From the NCBI GenBank assembly GCA_947259175.1, contig CAMYKW010000031.1:1-52774 (forward strand): a stretch of DNA of 52,774 bases, read 5' to 3'. A program made the position numbers and the translations under genes. Shown piece by piece: positions 33,854 to 48,489 of the stretch. The notes beneath the pieces are model-generated. The model was not told where the DNA came from, searched no databases, and saw only the letters and a list, made by a program, of their open reading frames with translations. Source of the stretch: an uncultured Gammaproteobacteria bacterium (GTDB lineage: Bacteria > Pseudomonadota > Gammaproteobacteria > Arenicellales > JAANXG01). Position 1 is the stretch's first letter, and every line of letters starts with the position of its first letter.

Positions 33854-34172
33854 CCTCGCTCCTCGCTATTCTCTTGTCCGCTGCGTTGAGAGATGGCAGG
33901 TATTGTGCTGATACTCGGGCACACACGACCCCGCCAAGCGTAAAGTAATAATACATTCGTGAATCCAGCAATAAAACAATACTGCTTGCAAACACGGGAT
34001 TGGTATCGAATCTTGGGGAAATTACCCGTCCGTACCGCGGATGGCCGGCTCCGATTGCGTTTCCTTCAATAGGTCGAGGGGTTTATACTTCCCAACCGTT
34101 TCAGTCCGCTGCAACCGTCAACATACAACCACCATCCGGCGATTCAATCATCGCACTTTAACAGGTCACAAT
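33854..34172. other. Divergent intergenic region
   Basis: AT-rich spacer between the minus-strand Cys-rich protein gene and the plus-strand phosphoesterase gene. It must hold both promoters, but no pair of -35 and -10 boxes is clear enough to name. No small gene is supported. Confidence 0.5.
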
Positions 34173-36608
34173 ATGAACACTAGCTGCCATCAATATCTCA
34201 TCAACCGAGACCCTAAAAGTGACAAGTATTCAGTATGGGAGTTCAACGCGGATTCATCGACGCTGCTGAAGAAGCTGAAAATCAAGGACAGCCACCCGGT
34301 CCCCGGCTCCCACCACATGACCCAAGTCGGTAACTATATTCTTGAGTGGAGCCCCCTCAATAGAGACCATCAATATACATACAGGCTCGTCGAGTTTGAC
34401 CCCGGTCAGCCCAATCCTCTGGGAAGTTATGATCGACAAGGAAATTGGACAGCGGCGGCGGTAAATTCCGGCAGTTGGGAAAAACGCAAGTTTTTCGGCT
34501 CCCGATCCGACTTTGCGAATCCCGGCGGCGCAGAAAAAGGTTATGAGTCCGGCGATGATGTAGTGTTGGTTTCGCTGCATAACTTTGTTCTGAATTGGAT
34601 TCCAACGTCCGGGCGAGGCACCTATCATCTGTTCAACTTCGATCATGCGAGCAAAGACCCGTTACCTAAAACAATAACCCCCCAGGGAGCTTGGCTGACC
34701 ATTCAAGATGGTCACCAACTCATACCGTGTTGCGGCTATATCATCGATTGGGAGTCCAGATCGGGCGATTACGCGATATGGCAATTTGATGCACAAGACA
34801 AGAATCCATTGAGTTTCCCGCCCATTCAACAGGGCAACTGGAAATCACTCGGCATCAACAGCAAGCACGAACTCATCGCCATCGGCAACTCCGTTCTCGA
34901 CCGAGTTAAAGCGACTGGTGAGTATCGACTGTGGGCGTTTGATCCCAACAGCGATGGCGCCCTGATTGGACCGATCAAGACCGGTAAATTGCCGAAGAGC
35001 TTCAGCAAGGATTCGATCATCACGCCGGTTGAAACCACGATTCCGGTCGACCAAAGGAACGCGCGTGTCGAAGGGACTGTGGATTTCATGCGCACAAAAA
35101 TTGAGCACGTTGTCTACTACATGATCGAGAATCGCTCTTTCGACCATGTCTGCGGGTGGCTGTACAAGAAAAATGCGCCGATAAAGGTTATTGGGCCTTC
35201 AGGTCCCTATAAAGGAGTCGACAACAAGTTCACCAACGAGTTTCGCGGCGAAGACTACCCGGTGACCCAATACAACAATGGAAAACTCAGCGAGAAGACC
35301 AAGGATGGCGAACCTTTCACTTTGGACCTGGATAAGCATGACCCCTATCACGACAACTCCGACGTGCTGAGGCAGTTGTTCTCCAAGGACATCAACGATT
35401 ATCACAACAAGAAAACACCCGACATGGGCGGCTTTGCCTGGAACAACGGCACGCAGGAAGTCATGCTGGGCTATTCGCCTGCTCAGCTGCCTGTACTGAA
35501 TGGTCTCGCCAAAAATTTTGCTGTTTCGGACGAATGGTTTTGCTCGATGCCAGGCGGTACCGATGTCAACCGCGCCTTTTCACTCACCGGATCTTCATTT
35601 GCGGAACTCAACAATTTTCAAAACGGAGTTGAATACACGGAGTGGTCCGAATACCCGCATCGGCCTTCGATATGGAAAGTCCTGTGGAGCAACGGATTCA
35701 AGGACTGGAAGATTTACAATGCAGTCGAGTGGGTGAACTGCAAATTTACCTACAATCTTTTCTTGAGAGGACAAATTCCTTCCATCGATAACCCGTTCAA
35801 GTTGGGTGACTACGCGCCGCAACTGAACCAATTCTATGACGACGCCAGGTACGGCACCTTGCCCAAATTCGCATTTCTCGAACCCAAATGGGTCGCCAGC
35901 AGCGGTTCAACGTCCTATCACCCCGGTAATGATCTGATTCCGGGAGAGCGGACCTTGAACGATATCTTTAACGCCTTACAGAATAGCCCGGCATGGGAAA
36001 AGACACTGCTGGTTATCACGTTCGATGAACACGGAGGGATGGCCGATCATGTTCCTCCACCATACGCCAAAAAACCCTTCGCTAATGATTCCGCCGGGGG
36101 ATTTGACTTCGACATCATGGGGGTTCGCGTACCCACAATTTTAGTGTCTCCGTGGATCAACAAAAACACCGTATTCCGATCTGAGACCGACACCCCCTAC
36201 GATTCTACTTCGATACTCGCCACCCTGCTGAATTGGTTGGGAATTCCCAAATCCAAATGGGGCCTCGGCGAACGCGTGAACTGTGCTCCCACCTTTGAAA
36301 GAGTCGTCCAAGCCAAGCAAGCGAGAACCGACAAGTTGTCCCTGACTCCGCCTTGGGATGCTAAATTTCCAAAACCGAAAACCGGCAATGGAGAGGACGT
36401 TGCTGCTGCACAGAGCGCGGACAGCAAGGATTTGAAGATTCACGATTTACACCGTTTAGTGGTGCCGCGAATGGTCGCCGACATGACTCCCAACATGAGC
36501 CAGGCAGAACGTGCAAAAATAACCGAGGAGATCTTGAGCAGCGCAGAGAACCAGGCGGCGCTGCACAAGCTACTGGATGAGCTGAATAAGCAATACAGTT
36601 CCACCTAG
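34173..36608 (+). CDS. Phospholipase C-type phosphoesterase with N-terminal repeat domain
   Basis: An 811-residue protein from the ATG at 34173; the reading upstream of it has no family resemblance. Residues 1 to about 290 are about five copies of a 50-60-residue repeat with a YxxWxFD...NPL...QGNW pattern, probably a small beta-propeller or lectin-like fold. Residues about 310-740 are a phosphoesterase of the PF04185 family (phospholipase C, AcpA): HVVYYMIENRSFDHV, FDEHGGMADHVPPP and VPTILVSPW. These hydrolyse phospholipids or phosphomonoesters. No Sec or Tat signal peptide is visible, unusual for this normally exported family. The coding sequence looks more AT-rich than its flanks. Confidence 0.83.
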   Translation: MNTSCHQYLINRDPKSDKYSVWEFNADSSTLLKKLKIKDSHPVPGSHHMTQVGNYILEWSPLNRDHQYTYRLVEFDPGQPNPLGSYDRQGNWTAAAVNSGSWEKRKFFGSRSDFANPGGAEKGYESGDDVVLVSLHNFVLNWIPTSGRGTYHLFNFDHASKDPLPKTITPQGAWLTIQDGHQLIPCCGYIIDWESRSGDYAIWQFDAQDKNPLSFPPIQQGNWKSLGINSKHELIAIGNSVLDRVKATGEYRLWAFDPNSDGALIGPIKTGKLPKSFSKDSIITPVETTIPVDQRNARVEGTVDFMRTKIEHVVYYMIENRSFDHVCGWLYKKNAPIKVIGPSGPYKGVDNKFTNEFRGEDYPVTQYNNGKLSEKTKDGEPFTLDLDKHDPYHDNSDVLRQLFSKDINDYHNKKTPDMGGFAWNNGTQEVMLGYSPAQLPVLNGLAKNFAVSDEWFCSMPGGTDVNRAFSLTGSSFAELNNFQNGVEYTEWSEYPHRPSIWKVLWSNGFKDWKIYNAVEWVNCKFTYNLFLRGQIPSIDNPFKLGDYAPQLNQFYDDARYGTLPKFAFLEPKWVASSGSTSYHPGNDLIPGERTLNDIFNALQNSPAWEKTLLVITFDEHGGMADHVPPPYAKKPFANDSAGGFDFDIMGVRVPTILVSPWINKNTVFRSETDTPYDSTSILATLLNWLGIPKSKWGLGERVNCAPTFERVVQAKQARTDKLSLTPPWDAKFPKPKTGNGEDVAAAQSADSKDLKIHDLHRLVVPRMVADMTPNMSQAERAKITEEILSSAENQAALHKLLDELNKQYSST

Positions 36609-36650: not shown

Positions 36651-36840
36651 TCTGAATACGCCACAGTGGACGAGCCGGGGTCGCGGGAGTGCAAACATCA
36701 ATCCGTAAATCCGCCACTCGAGTCGGCGGATGTGTCAGCGAAGTACACGCCAAAAAAAGATTGCGTGAAGCCAATTCCCAGGTGTATGGTGGGTTATTAT
36801 CGCACGCAATCAGTCTGCGGTGAGACCCAAGGAGGTGGCC

Positions 36841-39800
36841 ATGAAGGTCCGTCAGTTCACGCGCGGCGGCGCACTCGTGCTGCTGCTGTTGGTTGCGCTC
36901 GGCGCCAACGGCAAATCCAATCAGGCGCCGCCGACCCCGGTCGATACGCCGCCCAGCGCGATGCCCCTGCAGGACTACGAGACCCAGGTCCTCTACCCGT
37001 GGCTCAAGGCGCGGGGTTATGCCCGGCCGGAGCTGGGATGGACCGTGGATTCCGGGGTACGCGATACCGGTCCGTTTATCGCCGGGAATTACTACGGCAC
37101 GCATCCCGCGGTGCGCATCTACTACTCGCCCGCGGTCAGACGATGGCTGGACGGCGGTCGATCGGGGCCGGTGCCGGACGGCGGCATCATCGTCAAGGAG
37201 ATGTTCACACCGCCGGCCGCGATCTACCGCGAAATCGCGCAGAATCCCTGGTTCGAAAAGCATCCGGACCAGTACGAGGCGCTGCTCGAGGAACTGCTGA
37301 GCGGTTGGGCGGTCCTGATTAAGGATTCCAGGGGCGATTCCAAGGACGGCTGGTTCTGGTCTTCACCCGGCAATGCCGAAACGCTGGCCAAGATGCTCGA
37401 CCCGAAGGCCGGCAACGTGGACGACTACTCGCACGTTCTGACCTCGGCGTTCGGCATCGGCACCTGCATCCGCTGCCACGCCTCGGCGGAGTCGGAAAAC
37501 ACCTTTTCCTCCAGCACCAACTTCCTGCGCGGCGCGTCGCCGCTGCAGTTCCGCGTCGACAACTCCTGGCGCACCGACGCCTACCTCGGCACCGTGTACA
37601 CCAAGATCCAAAAGTTTCTCACCGCGCGCGGCGTTCCCGAAGCGGACGCGCAGGCGCTGCTCAGCCAGCTGAACCTCCCGCAACAACAGCGCCCGTGGCG
37701 CGACGACAACGTCCCGGACATCGCCGAGTTCGTCAGCGCGCATCTGCCCCGAGCAGCCGATCCGTCGGCGGGCTTGGCGTCTGCGCCGCGCAAGGCGGGG
37801 ATCAATGCCGATTTCGTGGCCAACTTCGCCGACCTGAACCACCTCGTCGACCATCGGCTGAGCGATGCGGAGATCGATAATTTCAGCTTCCCGTTCCAGT
37901 GGTCGGATCACGTGGTGCCGAAGCCGGCGATCGAGCAAGGCGGGACCGACAATCCCAGCGAGTACATCACCTCGGACAACTGCTACGGCTGCCACGGCGG
38001 CCTCGGCGGCGCGCCGTTTGCCGTGACCATGTTCGTGCAGACCGGTCCGAAATCGGGAGACGGTTTCAACATCTCCGAGTATGGCGAGTGGCGGTGGTCG
38101 CCGATGGGACTGGCGGGCCGCGATCCGGTGTTCCATGCGCAGCTCGAGACCGAATTGATCATCCTCATGCAGGAAAACGGGCAGCTTAAGGGCGGGAAGC
38201 CGGCGACCGGCGACGTCCGCACCGCCCAGCAGGCGCTCACCGACACCTGCCTGCGCTGTCACGGCGCCATGGGCTTGAGACAAAAGGGCATCGACCAGGG
38301 CGGTGACATCCTCAATCCCCGGTTCGACGTCAACTTTTTTTACCTCACCGAACCCCTCACCGCGGCGCAAAAAGACGATCCCGATTTCAAACCGCCGGCG
38401 CACCAGGTCAATCCCCCGTCGGGCCTGGACCCCAAGGCGTTCTACGCCGCGCACGACCTGGGCGAGCTGGCGCGGGAGGGCATCAGCTGTTTGGTCTGTC
38501 ACCGCATCGCCCCGCCGGATGCGCAAATCGCCAAGCGCTGGGTGGCGGACCATCCGGCCTGGTTCGGCAAACAACCGGTGTGGAGCGACGCGTTCTTTTA
38601 TTTTCTCGGGCGGAACACCACGGGCCTGTATACACGCAATGCGGCCAATGAGCTGTACGGGCCGTTCGACGACATCAAGCTCAAGCCGATGCAGAACGCC
38701 CTCGGGATCACCCCGCGGGTGGCGCCCGCCATGCACCACGACACGCCGTTCACCTCGGACTCGGCGATGTGCGGGACTTGTCACACCATCAACCTTCCCA
38801 ACATCGGCGCGCCGGCGGGCGAAACCCCGGTCCTCACCGCCCTGGAGCCCAACCCGCACTTCAAGCATCTCTCGCACAGCGTCGAACAGGCCACCTACCT
38901 GGAGTGGCTCAACAGCGCGTTTGGGCTCGGTAAAGACAACAAAAAAGGGGACAAATTTCAAAGCTGCCAGGACTGCCACATGCCCAACCGCTTCGCGACC
39001 CTGGACAAATCGGTGGAGATCCCGCGGCTCGCCAGCCAGATCGCCACCATTCAGGGGGCGGCGTACCCCCAGTCCGAGCATCAGCTCGCGTCCGCCGATC
39101 TCGACATTAAGACGCGTCCGGACTACCGGCGTCACGAACTGGTGGGCCTCAATGCGTTCATGATCGAGATGTTCAAACAGTTTCCTGAGGTGCTGGGCGT
39201 GTCCCCGGGCGATTACGAGACCGGGGCCGTCACCGGCGCCGATTTTGCGATTGAAAACATGCTGCTCTCCGCCCGCGAGGGTCGGGTCGCGACCGTGACC
39301 TTGAATTCCGCCACGGTGGGCGACACCGAGCTGGCGGTCGATGTCACGATCGCCAACAAGACCGGCCATCGCTTTCCCAGCGGTGTCACCTTCCGGCGCG
39401 CGTTCCTCGAGCTGCTGGTGCTGGATGAGCAAGGCCGGGTGATCTGGAGCTCCGGCCGCACCAATTCCGCCGGCGTGATCGTCGACCGTCACGGCCGTCC
39501 GCTGGCAACGGAGTTCCTCAACCACAAGGCAAGCGACAAAGATTCGATCGCCCAATACCAGCCCAACCACCAGACGATCCGCAGCGACCGGCAGGTGCAG
39601 ATCTATGAAGAACTCATCACCAACGCCGCCAACGAATTCACCACCAGCTTCATCCACCGGGTGCATCACATCAAGGATAACCGGCTGCCGCCCGAGGGCG
39701 CGGTCAATGCCAAGACCTTTGCCGGGCAGACGGCGGATGCCGGTATCGGGGACCAGGGTCAGCTGCTGTTCGAATTCATGAAGGCAACCGAACCCGAAGG

Positions 39801-40143
39801 CGCGAGCGTCATCGGCGGAACGGATCCGAACGGCGCACGGTTCGACGCGGACACCGACTTCACCGCGAGCCCCAACGACGGCGCCGATCGCCTGCGCTAC
39901 GACATCCCCGTTAGCCAACTCAACGGGCGTCCGGCCTCGGTCCGGGCGACGCTGTACTCCCAGTCGCTGATGCCGGCCTGGTTCCATCAAAGGTTCTCGT
40001 TGGCGAACGCCGCCAAGGCGGCGGGCTACAACACGCCGGAGACCGACCGGCTGTACTATCTTGCCAGCCGTTTGAACCTGGAGGGCACCGCCATTCAAGA
40101 CTGGAAACTCGAGATCGACAGCGACAGACTGATCATCGAATAG
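36841..40143 (+). CDS. Hexaheme cytochrome c, large exported
   Basis: An 1100-residue protein from the ATG at 36841, served by AAGGAGG 8 nt upstream. A signal peptide is visible (FTRGGALVLLLLVALGANG). Six CxxCH haem c motifs occur at residues 209, 381, 470, 550, 644 and 709 (CIRCH, CYGCH, CLRCH, CLVCH, CGTCH, CQDCH), so it should act in the periplasm or at the surface as an electron carrier or oxidoreductase. The last 300 residues contain a beta-sandwich-like segment NKTGHRFPSGVTFRRAFLEL with GRVIWSSGRT, which I have seen in large multihaem cytochromes of unknown function. No membrane porin or quinol partner gene is adjacent, so its redox partner is unknown. Confidence 0.87.
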   Translation: MKVRQFTRGGALVLLLLVALGANGKSNQAPPTPVDTPPSAMPLQDYETQVLYPWLKARGYARPELGWTVDSGVRDTGPFIAGNYYGTHPAVRIYYSPAVRRWLDGGRSGPVPDGGIIVKEMFTPPAAIYREIAQNPWFEKHPDQYEALLEELLSGWAVLIKDSRGDSKDGWFWSSPGNAETLAKMLDPKAGNVDDYSHVLTSAFGIGTCIRCHASAESENTFSSSTNFLRGASPLQFRVDNSWRTDAYLGTVYTKIQKFLTARGVPEADAQALLSQLNLPQQQRPWRDDNVPDIAEFVSAHLPRAADPSAGLASAPRKAGINADFVANFADLNHLVDHRLSDAEIDNFSFPFQWSDHVVPKPAIEQGGTDNPSEYITSDNCYGCHGGLGGAPFAVTMFVQTGPKSGDGFNISEYGEWRWSPMGLAGRDPVFHAQLETELIILMQENGQLKGGKPATGDVRTAQQALTDTCLRCHGAMGLRQKGIDQGGDILNPRFDVNFFYLTEPLTAAQKDDPDFKPPAHQVNPPSGLDPKAFYAAHDLGELAREGISCLVCHRIAPPDAQIAKRWVADHPAWFGKQPVWSDAFFYFLGRNTTGLYTRNAANELYGPFDDIKLKPMQNALGITPRVAPAMHHDTPFTSDSAMCGTCHTINLPNIGAPAGETPVLTALEPNPHFKHLSHSVEQATYLEWLNSAFGLGKDNKKGDKFQSCQDCHMPNRFATLDKSVEIPRLASQIATIQGAAYPQSEHQLASADLDIKTRPDYRRHELVGLNAFMIEMFKQFPEVLGVSPGDYETGAVTGADFAIENMLLSAREGRVATVTLNSATVGDTELAVDVTIANKTGHRFPSGVTFRRAFLELLVLDEQGRVIWSSGRTNSAGVIVDRHGRPLATEFLNHKASDKDSIAQYQPNHQTIRSDRQVQIYEELITNAANEFTTSFIHRVHHIKDNRLPPEGAVNAKTFAGQTADAGIGDQGQLLFEFMKATEPEGASVIGGTDPNGARFDADTDFTASPNDGADRLRYDIPVSQLNGRPASVRATLYSQSLMPAWFHQRFSLANAAKAAGYNTPETDRLYYLASRLNLEGTAIQDWKLEIDSDRLIIE

Positions 40144-40340: not shown

Positions 40341-42323
40341 TCAGATGAGTTCAGCATCGGTCATGATTTCCACCAACGCGGGTCCGTTGTGAGCCAGTGC
40401 CTCGTCCAATGCCGCCTTCAGTTTGTCCGCTGTCTTTACGCGCACGCCATGGGCGCCGCACAGTTTCGCGAAGGTGGCGAAATTGGGATTGTGCAGGTCG
40501 GTTTGCCATACGGGCCATTCGCCGGCGCGCTGCTCTTTCGTGATCTTGCCGAGCTGCGCGTTGTTCAGCAGCACGTGGGTGATGTTCATGTCGTACTTCA
40601 CGGCCGTCGTGAAATCGCCCAGGTACTGGCCGAAGCCGCCGTCGCCGCTGACCGAGATCACTTTGCGCCCCTGGTACTCGTCCTGGTCCTGCGTCGCGGC
40701 CCACGCGCCCATCGCAGCGGGGAATGCGAAGCCGATCGAACCTAAATAGCCCGACATCAAAACGCGCTGGCCCTTGCACTCGAAGTAGCGGCCAAAGGAA
40801 TACGTGTTGTTGCCGACGTCGACCGCGATGACCGCATCGTCCGGCACGGCATCGGTCAGCGCGGCAAACACGGCTGCCGAGCCGAGGCCTTTGCCCCGGT
40901 CATCGGCGAGGCGACTGGTCTTTTCCTCGCGCCAGATCGCCCAGCGCTCTGAGAGCTCGGGCCGCTGATCGACGGTGTGGACGACATCGCCAAGCTCGGC
41001 GGCCAGGCGTTTGGCCGTGACGCCGATCTCGCCCCAGACCGGAACGGCCACGCTGTGGAACTTGCCCAGCGCCATGCGATCGAAATCGACCTGGATGATC
41101 GGCCGTTTCGGCGTAATCCCCGTGTGATTCGAGAACGAGGAGCCGAACGCGAGGATCAGGTCGCACTCGTTCATGAACCAACTCGCCACCGGGGTGCCCG
41201 AGCGCCCGAGGACGCCCGCCGCCAAAGGATGACGATCATTGATCTGCCCTTTTGCCTTGAACGTCGTCAGCACCGGCGCGTTGAGCTGCTCCGCCAACGC
41301 AATGACTGCAGGCATCGCGTCGCGCGCGCCGTAGCCGACGATGACGATCGGCCGTTTCGATGCGCCGATCAGCGTTTTCGCTGCCGCCAGCGCTTGCTCG
41401 TCCGGCGCAATCTCAGGCAGAGCGATCCTCCCCTCAGGGCCCGATGCGCTTGCCGATTCGGCGGCCGGCAATGTCTGCACGTCGTCGGGAAAGATCAGGT
41501 GCGCGACGTCGCGGTCGACGATCGCATTCTTGCACGCCAGCGCCATCAGCTCCGCGTGCTTCGACGTGTGCAGCACCGTCTGGCTGAAGCGTGCGACCGG
41601 GGCGAACGCCGAATGCAGGTCGATCTCCTGGAATGCGCCCGGACCCAGGACCTGCACGTCGACCTGTCCCGTCAATGCGAGCACCGGCGCGCGGTCGACT
41701 TTGGCGTCCCACAGGCCCGTCATCAAGTTCGTCGCGCCCGGCCCGGCGATGGTCAGGCAGGCTGCGGGCTTGCCGGTCAATTTCGCGTAGCCGGAGCACG
41801 CGAATGCCGCCGCGCCTTCATGGCGGATGCCGTAATAGTTGAGGCGGCCTTTTTGCTGTTCGAGGCGCAGCGCATCCGCCAGACCCAGATTCGAGTGCCC
41901 GACCATGCCGAACACGCTGCTGACGCCCCAGTTGGTCATCGTCTGGGCCATCACGTCAGTGACGGTCTTCTCGCGTACCGGCTCGGGCTCGAGGCCGACG
42001 TAGATGCCGTCGTCACGGACTTCGATCGGATACAGCTTCTGACCGCTGTCCCGGTGGCCGCCCGGCGGTAACCCGGTCTTTGGATCGAAGTCCCAGCCGT
42101 GCCACGGGCAGCGCAGCCAGCACTGCCCATCGACGCCGATTTCGACGGAGCCTTCGCCGAGCGGGCCGCCCTGGTGCGGGCAGCGGTTGTCCATGGCGGT
42201 GTAATCGCCGTCGATATTCGTCAGCGCCATCGAATGTACACCGGCGGTCACGGTCTTGACGCGGCCGGAAGGCAGTTCATCGAGACCGGCCACCCGATGC
42301 CAGTTCAGTTGCTGTTCGCCCAT
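40341..42323 (-). CDS. TPP-dependent enzyme with N-terminal Rieske domain
   Basis: A 660-residue fusion from the ATG at 42323. Residues 1-115 are a Rieske [2Fe-2S] domain: Cys48-x-His50 (CPHQGG) and Cys72-x2-His75 (CPWHGWDFD). Residues 120-660 are a TPP enzyme of the pyruvate oxidase/acetolactate synthase type: YYGIRHEGAAAF with the TPP-activating Glu, a central domain, and SGDGGFGQYLGDF ending in LLNN, the TPP/Mg motif. The reaction is unknown; a decarboxylation feeding electrons into the Rieske cluster is plausible. An in-frame start 153 nt upstream lies within the preceding gene and is rejected. It is the last gene of a three-gene operon, 14 nt after the DUF5996-like gene. Confidence 0.85.
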   Translation of the reverse strand: MGEQQLNWHRVAGLDELPSGRVKTVTAGVHSMALTNIDGDYTAMDNRCPHQGGPLGEGSVEIGVDGQCWLRCPWHGWDFDPKTGLPPGGHRDSGQKLYPIEVRDDGIYVGLEPEPVREKTVTDVMAQTMTNWGVSSVFGMVGHSNLGLADALRLEQQKGRLNYYGIRHEGAAAFACSGYAKLTGKPAACLTIAGPGATNLMTGLWDAKVDRAPVLALTGQVDVQVLGPGAFQEIDLHSAFAPVARFSQTVLHTSKHAELMALACKNAIVDRDVAHLIFPDDVQTLPAAESASASGPEGRIALPEIAPDEQALAAAKTLIGASKRPIVIVGYGARDAMPAVIALAEQLNAPVLTTFKAKGQINDRHPLAAGVLGRSGTPVASWFMNECDLILAFGSSFSNHTGITPKRPIIQVDFDRMALGKFHSVAVPVWGEIGVTAKRLAAELGDVVHTVDQRPELSERWAIWREEKTSRLADDRGKGLGSAAVFAALTDAVPDDAVIAVDVGNNTYSFGRYFECKGQRVLMSGYLGSIGFAFPAAMGAWAATQDQDEYQGRKVISVSGDGGFGQYLGDFTTAVKYDMNITHVLLNNAQLGKITKEQRAGEWPVWQTDLHNPNFATFAKLCGAHGVRVKTADKLKAALDEALAHNGPALVEIMTDAELI

Positions 42324-42337
42324 TGCGCTCGCCCCTG

Positions 42338-43174
42338 TTATTCGTTGGTTGCCAGATGGGTCCGGCCCGCCGCCAGCAACCTCGACCAGAGCCCCTGCAG
42401 GTACCCGGCCGGGTCGTTCACTGCGACGAGATCCTTGTATAACAGTACCGCGCCGCTGAAGCCCTCGCTCTTCCACGTCGTGCCCGCCGGCAGTTCAATC
42501 TCCGGCAGCGCGTCGGGCAGCGGGTAGGCGGTGATATAGAAATACGGCGCCTCGATGCCTTCATCACCGTATACGAAACCGAAGTTCATTTGCTTGTCCG
42601 CGTACTCCTCGTCCGCCGGATCCTGATCCGGGACTTTGTGCCCGGGCAGCCAGATCATCGATAGATCGAAATGGTGCGGCCAGACCTGTATCGGGCTGGT
42701 CTCTTCCCGGATCCCGGCGCGAAAGTCCTCGAGTGCGGCGGTGACCGAGGCGAGTGCCCGTTGCAGCCCGATCGCCTGCTCGCCGGTATAGCCGCCGAAA
42801 TGCTCTTCCGCCCGGACCTTGTCACCCGGTGCGAGCGAGGGGTCGACACCGATCGCGACGAGCGTTTCGTCGAGATAGGACGCAACGCTCGCGGCCGACT
42901 GGCCGCTCAGGTCGTGGGTAATGTCTTTATCGGCCGTCCGCACCTTAAGTCGACTCGCGATAAAATCGAGCTCGAGCTCGAAGTCGACGCCGGCGTGCAC
43001 GACGCCCGTCGTCAGTCCCGCCAGCGACGGTCTGAGACTCGCGTGCCACCAGTGCTTCCTGCGTGCTCTGGTCGGACTGAGCCAGCCACCGAGCACGCGT
43101 GCATAGGCGTGCAGCGCGTCGCGCGTCGCACGTATGGCGCCGGCATCGAGTTCCGGAAATCGTTGCGTGGTCAT
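42338..43174 (-). CDS. DUF5996-like protein
   Basis: A 278-residue cytoplasmic protein. HWWHASLRPSLAGLTTGVV, FELELDFIASRLKVRT and SPIQVWPHHFDLSMIWLPG match the pattern of DUF5996 proteins, whose function is unknown; conserved Trp and His clusters (HWWH, WPHHFD) suggest a ligand or metal site. GAGGA lies about 8 nt before the ATG. It is 12 nt after the Rieske-GltB-like gene and 14 nt before the Rieske-TPP gene, so it must be made with both and may assist or regulate them. Confidence 0.65.
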   Translation of the reverse strand: MTTQRFPELDAGAIRATRDALHAYARVLGGWLSPTRARRKHWWHASLRPSLAGLTTGVVHAGVDFELELDFIASRLKVRTADKDITHDLSGQSAASVASYLDETLVAIGVDPSLAPGDKVRAEEHFGGYTGEQAIGLQRALASVTAALEDFRAGIREETSPIQVWPHHFDLSMIWLPGHKVPDQDPADEEYADKQMNFGFVYGDEGIEAPYFYITAYPLPDALPEIELPAGTTWKSEGFSGAVLLYKDLVAVNDPAGYLQGLWSRLLAAGRTHLATNE

Positions 43175-43186
43175 GGGATGTCCTCG

Positions 43187-44800
43187 TCAGGCGGCGGACA
43201 CGCCGCCGTAGGCGACACCAGACAGTCGGCACATGTCGGTCTTGAACGACGTCAGATCGGAAACTTTGAATTCGGACAGATGCCGGTGTCCGGCGGCGCG
43301 TGCGACTACGGTCATGAGTTCGACCGCCGCACCGAAGAATCTTGCCAGGCGTTCGGCCGCGATGTCGACCGGCAGCCGCGCCCGCAGGTGCGGTTTCTGC
43401 GTCGCAATGCCGACCGGGCAATTGTTCGTGTGACAGGCGCGCATGCCGAGACAACCGATCGCCTGGATCGCGGCGTTGGACACGGCGATCCCGTCGGCGC
43501 CCAGCGCCATCGCCTTGGCGAAGTCCGCCGGGGTACGTAACCCGCCGGTGATGATCAGCGTAACGCCATTCGCGTTGCATGAGTCGAGATGCTTCCTCGC
43601 CCGCGCCAGCGCCGGGATCGTAGGCACCGATATGTTGTCGCGGAATATCAACGGCGCCGCACCGGTGCCGCCGCCGCGGCCATCGAGGATGATGTAGTCG
43701 ACGCCGACCTCGAGCGCCGCGTCGATGTCCTTCTCGATATGTTGTGCCGACAGTTTGAAGCCGACCGGAATGCCGCCGGTGCGCTCGCGTACTTCGGCGG
43801 CGAAGTCGCGAAACTGCTCCAAGCTCTCCCAGTCGGGGAACCGTGCCGGCGAGATCGCGGATTCGCCCTCGGGCAAACCGCGCACTTCGGCGATCTTGCC
43901 CGTGACCTTGGCGCCCGGCAGATGGCCGCCGGTGCCGGTCTTCGCGCCCTGACCGCCCTTGAAATGAAACGCCTGTGCTTGTTTGACCTTGTCCCACGAG
44001 AATCCGAAGCGGGCCGAGGCGAGCTCGTAGAAGTAGCGCGAATTCGCCGCCTGCTCCTCCGGCAGCATGCCGCCCTCCCCCGAGCAGATGCCGGTGCCCG
44101 CGAGTTCGGCGCCCTTCGACAGCGCCACCTTGGCTTCCTCGGACAATGCGCCAAAACTCATGTCCGAGACGAACAGCGGTATATTCAGACGCAACGGTTT
44201 CGCGGCGTTGGGCCCGATGGTAATGTCGGAGCCGACCGGCTCGTCGTCCAGCAGCGGCAGCTTGTGCAGCTGGCCGACGACGAACTGCAGGTCGTCCCAC
44301 TTCGGCAGGCCGTCGCGCGGCACGCCCATCGCGGCGGCGGGGCCGTGATGGCCGAGCTTGCTCAAGCCTTCGTCCGCGAGCTTGCGAATGAACTTGACGT
44401 GTGGCTCGTCGCCCGTACCGGTCGGGTCCTGGTAGACGCCCTGATAGGCGTCGCGCTCATACGGCTGTGGGTGCCGTTTCGCCCACGCCGCGATCTCGTC
44501 TTCGTCAACGTAGACCTGACCGTCCTCGACCCAGGCGTTGAACTTCGCCAGCGTCTCGGTGTTGTTGTATTCGCTGATGCCGGTGTCGAGCCGGTAATCC
44601 CAACCGTGCACGCCACAGATCAGATTGTCGCCGTCGACATGGCCGTCGGCCATCAGCGCGCCACGGTGGGCGCAGCGCCCATAAAGCACGCTGACCTGAT
44701 CGTCGTAACAGATGACCACAAGATCGACATCGGCCACCAGCGCGTGCGCGGGCACGCGATCGTCGAGTTCGTCAAGGGAATAAATCGGCAATGCCTTCAT
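43187..44800 (-). CDS. GltB-type FMN enzyme with N-terminal Rieske domain
   Basis: A 537-residue fusion. Residues 1-100 hold a Rieske-type domain, Cys43-x-His45 (CAHRGALM) and Cys62-x2-His65 (CGVHGWDY). The remainder is the FMN-binding glutamate synthase domain: SDMSFGALSEEAK, GTGICSGEGGMLPEE, AFHFKGGQGAKTGTGGHLPG, VDYIILDGRGGGTGAAP and GCLGMRACHTNNCPVG, whose cysteines should bind the [3Fe-4S] cluster. The amidotransferase domain of true glutamate synthase is absent. So it resembles archaeal-type or FMN-only GltB proteins with an added electron-entry domain. First gene of the operon with the DUF5996-like and Rieske-TPP genes. Confidence 0.87.
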   Translation of the reverse strand: MKALPIYSLDELDDRVPAHALVADVDLVVICYDDQVSVLYGRCAHRGALMADGHVDGDNLICGVHGWDYRLDTGISEYNNTETLAKFNAWVEDGQVYVDEDEIAAWAKRHPQPYERDAYQGVYQDPTGTGDEPHVKFIRKLADEGLSKLGHHGPAAAMGVPRDGLPKWDDLQFVVGQLHKLPLLDDEPVGSDITIGPNAAKPLRLNIPLFVSDMSFGALSEEAKVALSKGAELAGTGICSGEGGMLPEEQAANSRYFYELASARFGFSWDKVKQAQAFHFKGGQGAKTGTGGHLPGAKVTGKIAEVRGLPEGESAISPARFPDWESLEQFRDFAAEVRERTGGIPVGFKLSAQHIEKDIDAALEVGVDYIILDGRGGGTGAAPLIFRDNISVPTIPALARARKHLDSCNANGVTLIITGGLRTPADFAKAMALGADGIAVSNAAIQAIGCLGMRACHTNNCPVGIATQKPHLRARLPVDIAAERLARFFGAAVELMTVVARAAGHRHLSEFKVSDLTSFKTDMCRLSGVAYGGVSAA

Positions 44801-44889: not shown

Positions 44890-46365
44890 TCAGGCGGCGA
44901 AGCGCAGCCCCGCCTGATTGCCCTCGATCCAGGCGACCGTGGCCGATTTCCCGCCGATTGTTACCGTTGCACCTTGCGCGGGTGGATTCGCCATTTCAAT
45001 GCGCACGCCTTGCTTGCTGCGATCGACCACGGTGCAAGGCGTATCCTCGACCGTTGCCGATTCGTCGACTACTCGCCGCAACTCGGCGCGCTCGTGAAAC
45101 AAAGGCAGTTCCGCCCTGCCCTCCCGGATATCCATCGCAGACCAAGGAATGTTGCCTGGGCTGTAGGTGGTGGAGCGCCTCTGCAGCCCATCATCCTTCT
45201 CGGTGACGATCTCCACCTGTTCATCCAGACGTTGTACCAGGGAGGGGTGAAGCATCTCGCAACCGGCGGCCTTGGCTCCGGACTCCAGCGCTCGCGCGCG
45301 GGCAGTCGGGCCAACCGGTCGTTCCTGCTCAAAGCTCGAAAACAAACGCCCGACCTTATCCCAAAGCCCGTCCATCGAATCATGTTGGCTCGGCAGCTCC
45401 CGCAATTCCAGGCGCGGCAGCGGTTCGGTCTGGTCAATCACCAAACCACACTCCGCGGCGCGGCGCAGCATGAAGTCGAAGGTGATGTCGCCGATACCCT
45501 TGTCGCCGTAACCGCCGCCGATATCCGAATGCACCCCCGGGAACCACACCTGCAGGCAGGTCTGTCCGGGCCCCAGGGCAGCGTGTTCCGACGCCGCGGT
45601 CCAAAGAGTGGGCGCGTAGGGACCGCGCTTTTCGTCGACGGCCAGCGCGTGGACCGAGTGCTCGACACGGGTCGACAGACCGGTGTTGTGGAAACCGACC
45701 ACGGTGTCATTGAGCTTGTCCGCCTTGGGCACTGGAATGCCCAGGGCACCCACCGTGTCATAGACACCGACAAAACGCACCTTGATGTCAGTGTGGCGCG
45801 GGTGATTCTTGATATCGCGGCTTAACAGATCGCTCAACCAAGCTTTCATCGTGTTCACGGCCCGATCGATCGACCAGCCTTCCGGCTTTCCCACCACCGC
45901 GTCCGCAAGGGCATAGTAGTGCAGGTAGGCGCGCAGCACGTCGCCTTCGCTGGGCTTCTGGAGTAACCCACCGGCCCGGTCGATAAAGCCGCATAGCGAA
46001 CGCGCGGTATAGGCGCCGCGACTGAAACCGAAGATATAGATTTCGTCGCCGGGCTGATAGTGATGAGCGAGATAGTGGTAGGCATCGCGAACGTTGTCCG
46101 ACAGGCCGCGCCCCAGCGCACCGCCGGTGACCAATTCACCGAATCCCGTTCCGACTCCCTTGTCGTAGTACAGCAGCACGTCCGAACCGTCCGACGCCTT
46201 GCCGTGGCAGTGCCGCCAACCCTCGATCTTGCCCTTCAACCCGCGCACCGGATCGCTCGCATCGCGAAGCTGCGCGCGCAGATGCTCATAGGTGCGGTGG
46301 ATATTTGTCCCGTCGCGGGGTTTGTTCCAGGTCCCGTCACAACAAACAACGATCTTGCGTGCCAT
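44890..46365 (-). CDS. DUF2235 hydrolase with C-terminal PilZ domain
   Basis: A 491-residue protein. The ATG at 46365 is preceded by GGAGG at good spacing. Residues 1-320 are a DUF2235/Tle1-like alpha/beta hydrolase: VVCCDGTWN, the nucleophile elbow GFSRG (Ser115), and WFPGVHSDIGGGYGD for the acid. Relatives include type VI secretion phospholipases. Residues about 420-491 form a PilZ domain with both c-di-GMP contacts: Arg426-x3-Arg430 (RAELR) and Asp448-x-Ser450-x2-Gly453 (DRSKQG). The hydrolase may thus be controlled by c-di-GMP. There is no signal peptide, and no VgrG or immunity gene beside it, so an intracellular lipase is as likely as an effector. It follows the S41 peptidase gene by 63 nt. 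Confidence 0.83.
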   Translation of the reverse strand: MARKIVVCCDGTWNKPRDGTNIHRTYEHLRAQLRDASDPVRGLKGKIEGWRHCHGKASDGSDVLLYYDKGVGTGFGELVTGGALGRGLSDNVRDAYHYLAHHYQPGDEIYIFGFSRGAYTARSLCGFIDRAGGLLQKPSEGDVLRAYLHYYALADAVVGKPEGWSIDRAVNTMKAWLSDLLSRDIKNHPRHTDIKVRFVGVYDTVGALGIPVPKADKLNDTVVGFHNTGLSTRVEHSVHALAVDEKRGPYAPTLWTAASEHAALGPGQTCLQVWFPGVHSDIGGGYGDKGIGDITFDFMLRRAAECGLVIDQTEPLPRLELRELPSQHDSMDGLWDKVGRLFSSFEQERPVGPTARARALESGAKAAGCEMLHPSLVQRLDEQVEIVTEKDDGLQRRSTTYSPGNIPWSAMDIREGRAELPLFHERAELRRVVDESATVEDTPCTVVDRSKQGVRIEMANPPAQGATVTIGGKSATVAWIEGNQAGLRFAA

Positions 46366-46428
46366 GCTATTTCCTCCCCTGCTTGTTGAACCATCCCGCG
46401 CTACAGCGGGCCACATCCTCGAATTTTA

Positions 46429-48489
46429 TCAAAGCTCCACGCGCCGAATCGCAACCAGTTCGTCCCCTTTGTAACCCACCAGCTGCAGCTCGTCGGCTCC
46501 CGGGATCGACGGCAGGGTGACTTGGGTGCTGGCGCTGCTGATGCTGCGCGATAGCTGGGGCCGGGTGTCGATATAGACGTCGAGCCGATTGATGTTTTTC
46601 GTGGTGAGTGCAATGGTCAACTCGCCGGAGGCGCCGGCGGTGGCCACGGCGTCGAGTCGGTAGCGCGGCATCTGATGCAACAGCTCCCCGGCCCGGTTGA
46701 TCAGGTCGACGTTACCCTCGAGTACGTCCGCCCGGGTCATGAAGTGGCGATGATCGGGCATCACACCGAGATCTTCAACCGGCGTGCCGGCGTTGTGTCC
46801 AACCCGCAGGGTGCGCCTGATCGACGCCCGCATGTTCGCACCGTTGGGCAGATTCACATAGGGATTGTCTGCACTCGGTGTGGGCAGTTCCATCAACAGC
46901 TTAAACAATCCATGTTCCCACACGTTGGCGCCGCCCGCGCCGGTATTGTTGTCCGTGCCCAGCACGGGACCGATCTTGTGGTCCTGGAACCCCGCGGCGA
47001 AGATGTCGGTCGCGCTGTAGCACTTGGCGTCGGTAATCAACACCACCGGTCCGATGTACTGCTGACCGATATTGTTGGCCTGTTGTTCGGTGGTGATCGG
47101 AAATGCACGGGAGTACGCAGCCCCGGTCTTGATGGCCTCCTTCATCGACGCCAGCCACGGCCCCAGATCGATTCCGGAGGCGCCGGTCTTATGCCGCTCG
47201 CACAGCCGGATATTCAACGACGAGTTGATGAATTGGGTGGGTTCGGGCGTAATCCGGTGCGGGGTCAGCACCTGCAACAACTGCTCACTGGCATGAATAT
47301 GCCCGCCGCCGTTTCCGCGCACGTCCACTATCAGGCCGTGTTGCGGCAGCTGACTCGCGAGGCGCACGAATTCATTCACGAAATCGTCCGGCGTCACCAC
47401 AAACGGTTTTCGCGGAAGATTGAAGCTGAAGATGCGGATATAGCCGAATGTGCCGTTGGGCGTATCCACGGACTTGGCGGCGAGCAGACTCGGCAGGGAA
47501 CTGGTCAACGCTAATGCCCGCACGGCGCGCGCGCTCAACCGGCCGCCTTTGGTTCGCGCCCTGGATCGGGACAGTTTCCGTTCGGCGGCCACCACCGCCG
47601 GGGCGAACAATACTTTCTTCATGCGATTGATCAGCTCGACCTCCAAGTCCGACCCGATAGCGGCTCTTTGCGCCACCGACCCGCCGCCATCTCCGTCACT
47701 GCCGGGGTCCGGCGCCTGGAATATCAGCCACTCGAACTTATGCTCGCGAACATCGCCATTTGGGGCGCGAAATCCCACCACGACCCATTCCGCGTCGGGG
47801 TGTGGAGACACCGCCAGCGGCCGGATGGTCAAGTGTTCCAAACCGCGGGCATGCCGCGCGTCCGGGTTGCTGCCCGCATGGCGGTCGGCGTTAATCTCAA
47901 CCGCCCTGTCGACGGGCACCCCGTTCCAATGGACGATATCCACGCCCTCTTTGAAATGCGGGTGACTGAATCCATCCATGACGTGAGACACGACGTAGCG
48001 CCGGGTATCTTGTTCAAAATATTCCTCCACCAGGAACGGTAAGAACGCGGTCACTTTGTTAAATGGCTCTGGCAGCACGTAGTTCGTGTGAAGATCACGC
48101 ACCGACGCGAAGATTTGCGTCATCTCACGGTGAAACTGCGCCTCGGCAGGCATGGTACTGTTGGTCAGTTGATTGAGACGATGCCGCAGCAGCTTCAGTC
48201 TTTGTATCGGGTCTACCGCGTGCATGGCCCGCTTCAAAGGCAGGTGGACGTAATTCTGTTCCAACAACACCAGCGCCTGATCGACCAGCTGCTTTCGTTT
48301 CGCCAGCGTCAGTACACCGGACGTTGAGATGAAGGTCGACAACGCGGTGGAGGCCCGCAGGTGGGTGCGGACCGCCGGGTGGCTTTTCGAGAGAAATGCG
48401 GCGAACGCCTTTTTCTTACCGCGGGATCGTGCGCGGGTCTTGCTGCGCTTGACTTTGCTGACTCGCTTTTTACGTCTGGCAGAATTCAT
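46429..48489 (-). CDS. S41-family peptidase-like protein
   Basis: A 686-residue protein. GGAGG lies 7 nt before the ATG. The C-terminal processing peptidase pattern is clear: GTFGYIRIFSF, GLIVDVRGNGGGHI, then VVLITDAKCYSATDIFAAGFQDHKIGPVLG, where Ser492 is the expected nucleophile and the Lys in DHKIG follows. The first 40 residues are extremely basic (runs of Lys and Arg) and no signal peptide is seen, unlike typical exported S41 enzymes; the basic tail may bind nucleic acid or membrane. A PDZ domain is not obvious. The last 80 residues form a beta-rich domain. It is transcribed just before the DUF2235-PilZ gene and just after a tiny membrane peptide. Confidence 0.82.
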   Translation of the reverse strand: MNSARRKKRVSKVKRSKTRARSRGKKKAFAAFLSKSHPAVRTHLRASTALSTFISTSGVLTLAKRKQLVDQALVLLEQNYVHLPLKRAMHAVDPIQRLKLLRHRLNQLTNSTMPAEAQFHREMTQIFASVRDLHTNYVLPEPFNKVTAFLPFLVEEYFEQDTRRYVVSHVMDGFSHPHFKEGVDIVHWNGVPVDRAVEINADRHAGSNPDARHARGLEHLTIRPLAVSPHPDAEWVVVGFRAPNGDVREHKFEWLIFQAPDPGSDGDGGGSVAQRAAIGSDLEVELINRMKKVLFAPAVVAAERKLSRSRARTKGGRLSARAVRALALTSSLPSLLAAKSVDTPNGTFGYIRIFSFNLPRKPFVVTPDDFVNEFVRLASQLPQHGLIVDVRGNGGGHIHASEQLLQVLTPHRITPEPTQFINSSLNIRLCERHKTGASGIDLGPWLASMKEAIKTGAAYSRAFPITTEQQANNIGQQYIGPVVLITDAKCYSATDIFAAGFQDHKIGPVLGTDNNTGAGGANVWEHGLFKLLMELPTPSADNPYVNLPNGANMRASIRRTLRVGHNAGTPVEDLGVMPDHRHFMTRADVLEGNVDLINRAGELLHQMPRYRLDAVATAGASGELTIALTTKNINRLDVYIDTRPQLSRSISSASTQVTLPSIPGADELQLVGYKGDELVAIRRVEL

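Follow-up and report, generated by a model that had tools for sequence, protein, structure and literature searches.

A stretch of 52,774 nucleotides (nt) from an uncultured gammaproteobacterium of the Arenicellales (assembly GCA_947259175.1, contig CAMYKW010000031.1), called the window in its full length, contains three neighboring genes on the minus strand, named A, B and C, of which A and C encode unrelated enzymes that each begin with a Rieske [2Fe-2S] domain. Gene A (43187-44800) encodes a protein of 537 amino acids (aa) in which the Rieske domain (PF00355) precedes a GltB-type flavin mononucleotide (FMN)/[3Fe-4S] domain (PF01645). The gene B product (42338-43174; 278 aa) belongs to DUF5996 (PF19459; 117.5 bits against a Pfam cut-off of 25), and that of gene C (40341-42323; 660 aa) joins a Rieske domain (PF00355) to a thiamine pyrophosphate (TPP) enzyme of the pyruvate oxidase/acetolactate synthase type (PF02776, PF00205, and PF02775). 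Gaps of 12 nt (43175-43186) and 14 nt (42324-42337) separate A from B and B from C. The positions and Pfam domains agree with an earlier account made from the letters of the window alone (the sequence-only reading), which had proposed three open reading frames (ORFs) with these gaps.

A purine-rich stretch was present 5' of the ATG of all three genes. An alternative ORF for gene C with a GTG start (40341-42476) runs into the DUF5996 gene; translation probably starts at the ATG at 42323. No sigma-70-like promoter was found between 40000 and 45000 (0 found vs. 0.9 expected by chance), so we infer the co-transcription of the three genes from their spacing and from their conservation elsewhere. 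Among the 121 six-frame ORFs of the window with at least 100 aa, the motif C-x-H-x(14-24)-C-x2-H occurred in the products of genes A and C only, and this rarity, together with the Pfam scores, excludes a chance origin of the two Rieske sites.

The Rieske domain of A (aa 5-85, 44546-44788; 43.8 bits against a cut-off of 20.3) contains the ligand pairs C43-x-H45 and C62-x2-H65, and all four ligands were invariant when A was aligned with its best 80 relatives (81/81). The three cysteines that are the putative [3Fe-4S] ligands (C450-x5-C456-x4-C461; 43418-43453) and the listed FMN-site residues were invariant in the same 81 sequences. Within the Glu_synthase domain (PF01645, 300.3 bits; aa 195-505, 43286-44218), alignment with the ferredoxin-dependent glutamate synthase (GltS) of Synechocystis, whose numbering is used here, showed that E903, K966, Q969, K972, and R992 were kept in all 81 A sequences (E242, K281, Q284, K287, and R307 in the window), that Q978 was His in all 81 (H293), and that E975 was Thr in 80 of them (T290). 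We take E903, K966, Q969, K972, Q978, and R992 to be residues of the 2-oxoglutarate site of GltS, and the kept Lys, Arg, and Glu residues point to a carboxylate-bearing 2-oxo or 2-imino compound as the probable substrate of A.

The likeness of A to GltB and to ferredoxin-dependent GltS thus includes the PF01645 domain, the [3Fe-4S] cysteines and most of the 2-oxoglutarate-site residues. Unlike these enzymes, A has the Q978-to-His replacement and its own Rieske gate, and two domains are missing. Pfam gave no match to a glutaminase domain in the gene A chain, a result that covers the chain itself and not a search for a separate glutaminase gene or subunit, and no match to the GXGXG domain (PF01493). 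The single GXGXG match in the genome of the window lies inside its ordinary, 1499-aa GltB, which is 35% identical to A. A separate GXGXG gene was detected in two of 11 A genomes (G139 and G223), where it adjoins another GltB-like gene and not A. With neither of these parts in its chain, A probably does not act as a glutamine-dependent glutamate synthase of the standard or the split kind; the FMN/[3Fe-4S] domain of the GltB-type enzyme that had been proposed stands. A passage of PMC8097209 describes the [3Fe-4S] cluster of glutamate synthase as handing electrons to FMN, and on this ground we propose the order Rieske, [3Fe-4S], FMN for the centers of A.

The Rieske domain of C (aa 7-84, 42072-42305) scored 60.0 bits (cut-off 20.3), and its ligands, C48-x-H50 and C72-x2-H75, were invariant in the 31 sequences, C included, that had letters at these positions (one of 32 rows was gapped). 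An intact Rieske site on each of two unrelated enzymes, as the sequence-only reading had it, is therefore borne out by ligand conservation in both A and C. TPP_enzyme_N (aa 120-237, 41613-41966), TPP_enzyme_M (aa 313-440, 41004-41387), and TPP_enzyme_C (aa 502-653, 40365-40820) scored 110-121 bits each; TPP_enzyme_M is presumably the FAD-binding domain in the relatives of C. The catalytic Glu169, aligned with Glu50 of PoxB, was kept in 32 of 32 aligned sequences. PoxB was the best PDB match (3eya/3ey9), and the best NCBIfam model was the pyruvate oxidase PRK08611 with 394 bits, under its cut-off of 742, while PRK09124 gave 315 bits, under a cut-off of 792.

Like PoxB (3ey9) and the pyruvate oxidase of L. 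plantarum (POX), C has all three TPP domains and the catalytic Glu. It differs from them in its N-terminal Rieske domain, in a C-terminus about 40 residues shorter than that of PoxB, and in Lys593, which was Lys in 31 of 31 sequences where PoxB has Phe465 and POX has Phe479. We take the C-terminal end of PoxB to be its membrane-binding, quinone-contacting part. A TPP oxidase with a Rieske domain and without the quinone-contacting tail is consistent with the output of electrons via the cluster.

In its Pfam domains A corresponds to GltB and C to acetolactate synthase/pyruvate oxidase enzymes, and the five GltS residues from E903 to R992 named above are kept in A, as they would be if the two genes were ordinary paralogs of glutamate synthase and acetolactate synthase in which the Rieske domain is inert decoration. 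This explanation is very improbable, given that A has neither a glutaminase nor a GXGXG domain, that the only GXGXG of the genome lies in the 1499-aa GltB, that Q978 is His throughout the A sequences, and that C reached 292 bits with the acetolactate synthase model TIGR00118, under its cut-off of 538. Moreover, the Rieske ligands are invariant across many phyla, which is unlike inert decoration.

In a scan of GTDB species contigs, relatives of A were encoded in at least 580 stretches, not all of which were checked for the Rieske domain, and the best 80 were analyzed as A loci, a sample that is biased to close relatives. The source records were for the most part metagenome-assembled genomes, and included several groups of Pseudomonadota, Acidobacteria, Nitrospinaceae, Nitrospirales, Planctomycetota, Chloroflexi, Gemmatimonadetes, Poribacteria, and a cyanobacterium. 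Counts of neighboring genes in these loci are lower bounds, as many flanks end at contig ends. A homolog of C was found in 32 of the 80 loci, on the same strand in 28, and 22 of these were within 600 nt of A. The distribution suggests that the Rieske module is widespread rather than a local oddity.

Other genes recurred beside A. A third Rieske protein was encoded in 21 of the 80 loci, a small membrane protein in 21, and a membrane-anchored protein of 253 aa in 18. Some operons (L053, L090, and L113) have all of these in a single row that starts with an antiporter gene, continues with A and the genes for the small membrane protein, the third Rieske protein, and the 253-aa protein, and ends with C. 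In the third Rieske protein (L041, 12161-13228), a ferric-reductase-like membrane domain (Ferric_reduct) precedes the Rieske domain, and five His residues, possible heme ligands, were kept in 22 of 22 aligned sequences. It resembles the A and C products in bearing a Rieske domain and in coming from the same neighborhood, but it is a membrane protein and its Rieske domain is C-terminal. The trio seen in the window is a sound description of that locus, but at some other loci the set is larger.

The 253-aa protein (L041, 13225-13986, plus strand, and relatives) has one predicted N-terminal helix and barrel domains that belong to no Pfam family. Its motif D-x-K-C ... H-x2-C-A-x2-C was invariant in 15 of 15 aligned sequences. 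One barrel matched mainly chains of single-stranded-DNA-binding proteins and small OB-type barrels (best Z 8.1), matches that do not indicate a function.

Co-occurrence in whole genomes was evaluated in 398 Pseudomonadota genomes, where A was counted when its Rieske part matched and C at E <= 1e-100. A was detected in 12 genomes (10 full length and two fragments) and C in five, all of them within the 12 with A. When the genome of the window was left out, C was present in four of 11 genomes with A vs. none of 386 without it (Fisher p = 3.2e-7), a p-value not corrected for relatedness that overstates independence, as three of the four genomes are from one family. Three of the 386 (G312, G266, and G246) had a fragment of the core only, with the N-terminus not seen. 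Among the genome of the window and 40 relatives, C was detected in four, namely the window's own, G006, G007, and G017; A was full length in G006 and G007 and a fragment on another contig in G017. The A-C pair recurs across phyla in the A loci, and C was accompanied by A in five of five cases among the 398 genomes and in the three relatives, one of them with a fragment of A.

The genome of the window contains a second pair of a GltB-like gene and a TPP gene (C56; L093, 7645-10898, minus strand), which lacks Rieske domains. The idea that such a Rieske-less pairing is ancient was rejected, as a TPP gene was found in three of 30 related loci (flanks of about 1.5 kb). One of these three loci is from the window's own genome and one is a distant match, which does not make a strong pattern. 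An aldehyde dehydrogenase adjoins six of the 30 loci.

The core of A also occurs with other N-termini. In 28 further genomes of the 398, matches at 57-71% identity started at A residue 109-128, past the Rieske domain. Two CDGSH-type motifs were present in all 12 N-termini read among these relatives, and Pfam confirmed two in L100. The combination of two CDGSH motifs with the glutamate synthase FMN domain was named type 5 CISD in 2011 (PMC3174974) and was noted also in PMC5859297; the available parts of these two papers state no function for it. Type 5 CISD is the nearest known thing to the module. It shares with A the core, the [3Fe-4S] motif, an N-terminal, His-ligated [2Fe-2S] gate, and for the most part the Thr/His signature (Thr at the E975 site in 11 of 12 and His at the Q978 site in 10 of 12 CDGSH-bearing cores), whereas its gate consists of two CDGSH motifs and that of A of one Rieske domain. 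Rieske-bearing and CDGSH-bearing cores were 55-72% identical (21 x 12 sampled cores). A third kind of gate, again a one-electron carrier, was found at L118 (7294-8754, minus strand), where rubredoxin forms the N-terminus of a Glu_synthase core of the same family that is 43% identical. With CDGSH motifs in the sister group and rubredoxin in a distant relative, the N-terminus of the A core looks like an exchangeable electron gate.

In a tree of the cores, the 21 sampled Rieske-bearing cores formed one clade (support 89/100; 90% of bootstrap trees), with CDGSH-bearing cores beside or around it. Seven truncated loci (L120, L121, and L124-L128), whose N-termini are cut off, were labeled as other, and nine of 46 rows had been left out of the tree (six of these loci, one truncated duplicate, and two true GltB rows). 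One histidine-ligated gate has been exchanged for another on the same core. We claim the exchange and not its direction, because a single clade of CDGSH-bearing cores was not rejected (p-AU 0.364) and the outgroup includes some very long branches. Identity between the Rieske domains of A and C averaged 21%, against 66-67% within each type; the domain of the third Rieske protein was 21% identical to that of A and 33% to that of C. A stand-alone Rieske ferredoxin of the same genome was 26-29% identical to each of these three domains (26% and 28% for those of the two enzymes). Since the domains of A and C are no closer to each other than to this ferredoxin, they were probably gained separately.

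These patterns lead us to propose, tentatively and at somewhat less than an even chance, that a single redox module comprises A and C, with Rieske [2Fe-2S] domains as the electron gates of both enzymes. C would decarboxylate a 2-oxo acid oxidatively at TPP, probably with FAD, and its electrons would leave via the Rieske domain and not via a membrane-binding tail of the PoxB type. In A, electrons would enter by the Rieske domain and pass through [3Fe-4S] to FMN, where a carboxylate-bearing 2-oxo or 2-imino substrate would be reduced, or the enzyme would run in reverse. Electrons could pass from C to A directly or by way of a small carrier common to both. In genomes that encode the ferric-reductase-like third Rieske protein with its predicted heme b, electrons would be exchanged with the membrane as well, and DUF5996 would serve as an accessory factor. 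We infer the bound cofactors, the direction, the substrates, and the exchange of electrons between A and C from sequence. A precedent for such a relay is mitoNEET, for which a passage of PMC9490426 describes the transfer of electrons from FMNH2 to O2 or ubiquinone via the CDGSH cluster. The central idea of the sequence-only reading, that shared electron-entry domains imply a common redox partner or direct exchange, is strengthened, with support that comes from sequence comparison.

Several observations weigh against a joint module of A and C. No C was detected within the flanks of 48 of the 80 A loci, many of which were ended by contig ends, and seven of the 12 A genomes among the 398 lacked C at E <= 1e-100. 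In the 12 relatives from the genus and family of the window (G001-G012), A was present in eight and C in G006 and G007 only (E <= 1e-60). A has a much wider distribution than C and so can work without it. In the genome of the window, the third Rieske protein was not detected at the threshold used. It occurred in six of the 398 genomes, four of which are among the 12 with A, and strict co-conservation with A was rejected because the other two (G123 and G320) have it without A. The Phe at PoxB position 465 and POX position 479 is, we assume, linked to electron transfer to FAD in pyruvate oxidases; with Lys in its place, C may not be an oxidase and its half-reaction may differ.

The same absences of C favor the main rival, in which A alone is the functional core, an oxidoreductase with FMN and a His-ligated [2Fe-2S] cluster that would connect a metabolite of the cytosol with the quinone pool or oxygen. 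C, the third Rieske protein, the antiporter, and DUF5996 would then be interchangeable clients or neighbors that never pass electrons to A. We regard this as a serious possibility, though a doubtful one. In addition to the loci and genomes just counted, six of the eight A-bearing near relatives have A without C, and the neighbors of A vary, with CDGSH-type loci having none in common with Rieske-type loci by eye among the loci listed; the relay from FMNH2 in the passage on mitoNEET (PMC9490426) is a precedent here too. Against an A that acts alone stand the 22 of 80 loci in which C lies on the same strand within 600 nt, and no genome in the whole-genome searches had C but not A, when one A fragment is counted.

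A more general form of the proposed A-C module is possible, although we hold it with less confidence than the pairing itself. Across many phyla, a dedicated circuit would comprise unrelated enzymes, namely the FMN/[3Fe-4S] core, the TPP enzyme, and the predicted heme b membrane protein, each fused to a Rieske domain. It would couple the oxidation of a 2-oxo acid to the reduction of a second carboxylate and to the membrane through proton-coupled, histidine-ligated [2Fe-2S] clusters, with Rieske and CDGSH interchangeable on one core. Export of electrons from a TPP enzyme by a Rieske domain of its own would, if true, be a novel coupling of 2-oxo-acid decarboxylation to electron transport. The exchange of Rieske and CDGSH on one catalytic core is a natural experiment, suggesting the need for a histidine-ligated, probably proton-coupled [2Fe-2S] gate, and the set of Rieske enzymes offers a handle on the type 5 CISD proteins named in PMC3174974.

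This conserved and widely distributed set of redox enzymes was without description in the open-licence PubMed Central (PMC) papers searched. Among the matches listed, none described the trio, a Rieske-GltB protein, or a Rieske-TPP protein, in keeping with the earlier statement that no described pathway with this layout was known to its author. The novelty that had been claimed for the two-enzyme module is qualified on one side, as no description of the pair was found but its GltB part has a cousin in the CDGSH-fused type 5 CISD, as far as the available part of PMC3174974 goes. A riboflavin-catabolism system with Rieske and TPP enzymes (PMC12746152) was considered and rejected as a match, since there these enzymes are separate proteins and the term glutamate synthase is absent from its text. 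A defence system was likewise rejected, as PADLOC matched neither the three genes of the trio nor the gene directly upstream of them.

An antiporter of the Na+/H+ exchanger family was encoded in 23 of the 80 A loci, and in 20 of them its gene immediately precedes A at a distance within 100 nt. In G007, from the family of the window, the antiporter gene, which is in two pieces, is followed by A, DUF5996, and C (locus L161), so that the antiporter adjoins the trio. These arrangements would suit a module for pH/Na+ or osmotic stress in which A and C remake amino-acid and 2-oxo-acid pools, the antiporter moves cations, and the Rieske domains act chiefly as sensors of redox state or of pH, with which their histidine ligands titrate. 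Such a role is unlikely. The antiporter is missing from the genome of the window (E <= 1e-30) and was not detected in 57 of the 80 loci, some of which end early, and the three proteins of the trio gave no Pfam match to a regulatory domain.

The place of DUF5996 in the proposed A-C module is optional. Fourteen of the 80 A loci encode it: between A and C, the order of the window, in four (L018, L078, L087, and L089), after C in five, next to A in three whose flank lacks C, and on the opposite strand in two. The pairing of A with C in the trio layout of the sequence-only reading thus held, but DUF5996 as a fixed member did not. Among 40 chosen, non-random genomes, DUF5996 was detected in five, the window's own, G006, G007, G017, and the CDGSH-type G322, and among 14 controls in one, Methanosarcina acetivorans. 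Because it occurs in G322 and in M. acetivorans, DUF5996 is not specific to the Rieske module. The family was not named in the open-licence PMC papers searched.

The AlphaFold2 model of the gene B product (predicted local distance difference test score, pLDDT, 89; predicted template modeling score, pTM, 0.88) has two alpha-beta-alpha halves, and residues H22, P166-H167, D170, G203-D204, P210-Y211, Y213, and W234 were invariant in 14 of 14 aligned sequences. Frataxin chains matched both predicted halves, with best Z values of 5.0 (97 residues, root-mean-square deviation 4.7) and 5.7 (90 residues, root-mean-square deviation 3.3). This match and the presence of DUF5996 in 14 of the 80 loci are what favor a maturation factor, a frataxin-like iron donor for the adjoining Rieske/[3Fe-4S] enzymes, a role that would concern gene B only and is compatible with the other explanations. 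We consider it quite improbable. Z values below 8 may reflect a mere common alpha-beta-alpha arrangement, unrelated Mediator chains outscored frataxin on the same model (Z 7.0 and 6.3), Foldseek returned no match for the model at E <= 0.001, and DUF5996 is missing from most A loci. At L018 (9629-12480, plus strand), DUF5996 and the Rieske part of C are in one frame and the TPP part is in another, which is either a true fusion with a frameshift or an assembly error.

The genes around the trio in the window are of varied kinds. Directly upstream of gene A by 89 nt, and on the same strand, is a gene (44890-46416, minus strand) for a protein with the catalytic domain of a Tle1-like phospholipase of the type VI secretion system (238 bits); in G007 an antiporter occupies the place held by this gene. 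Two genes upstream of the trio is an S41 peptidase (46429-48489, minus strand), for which the CPAF model gave a weak match of 65.5 bits against a cut-off of 250. Convergent to the trio, a gene on the plus strand (36820-40143) encodes an 1107-aa protein with six CxxCH heme-binding motifs (aa 216, 388, 477, 557, 651, and 716), whose matches to cytochromes were weak only. The plus-strand gene at 34041-36608 encodes a phosphoesterase-family protein that resembles phosphocholine-specific phospholipase C, with a score under the cut-off of that model.

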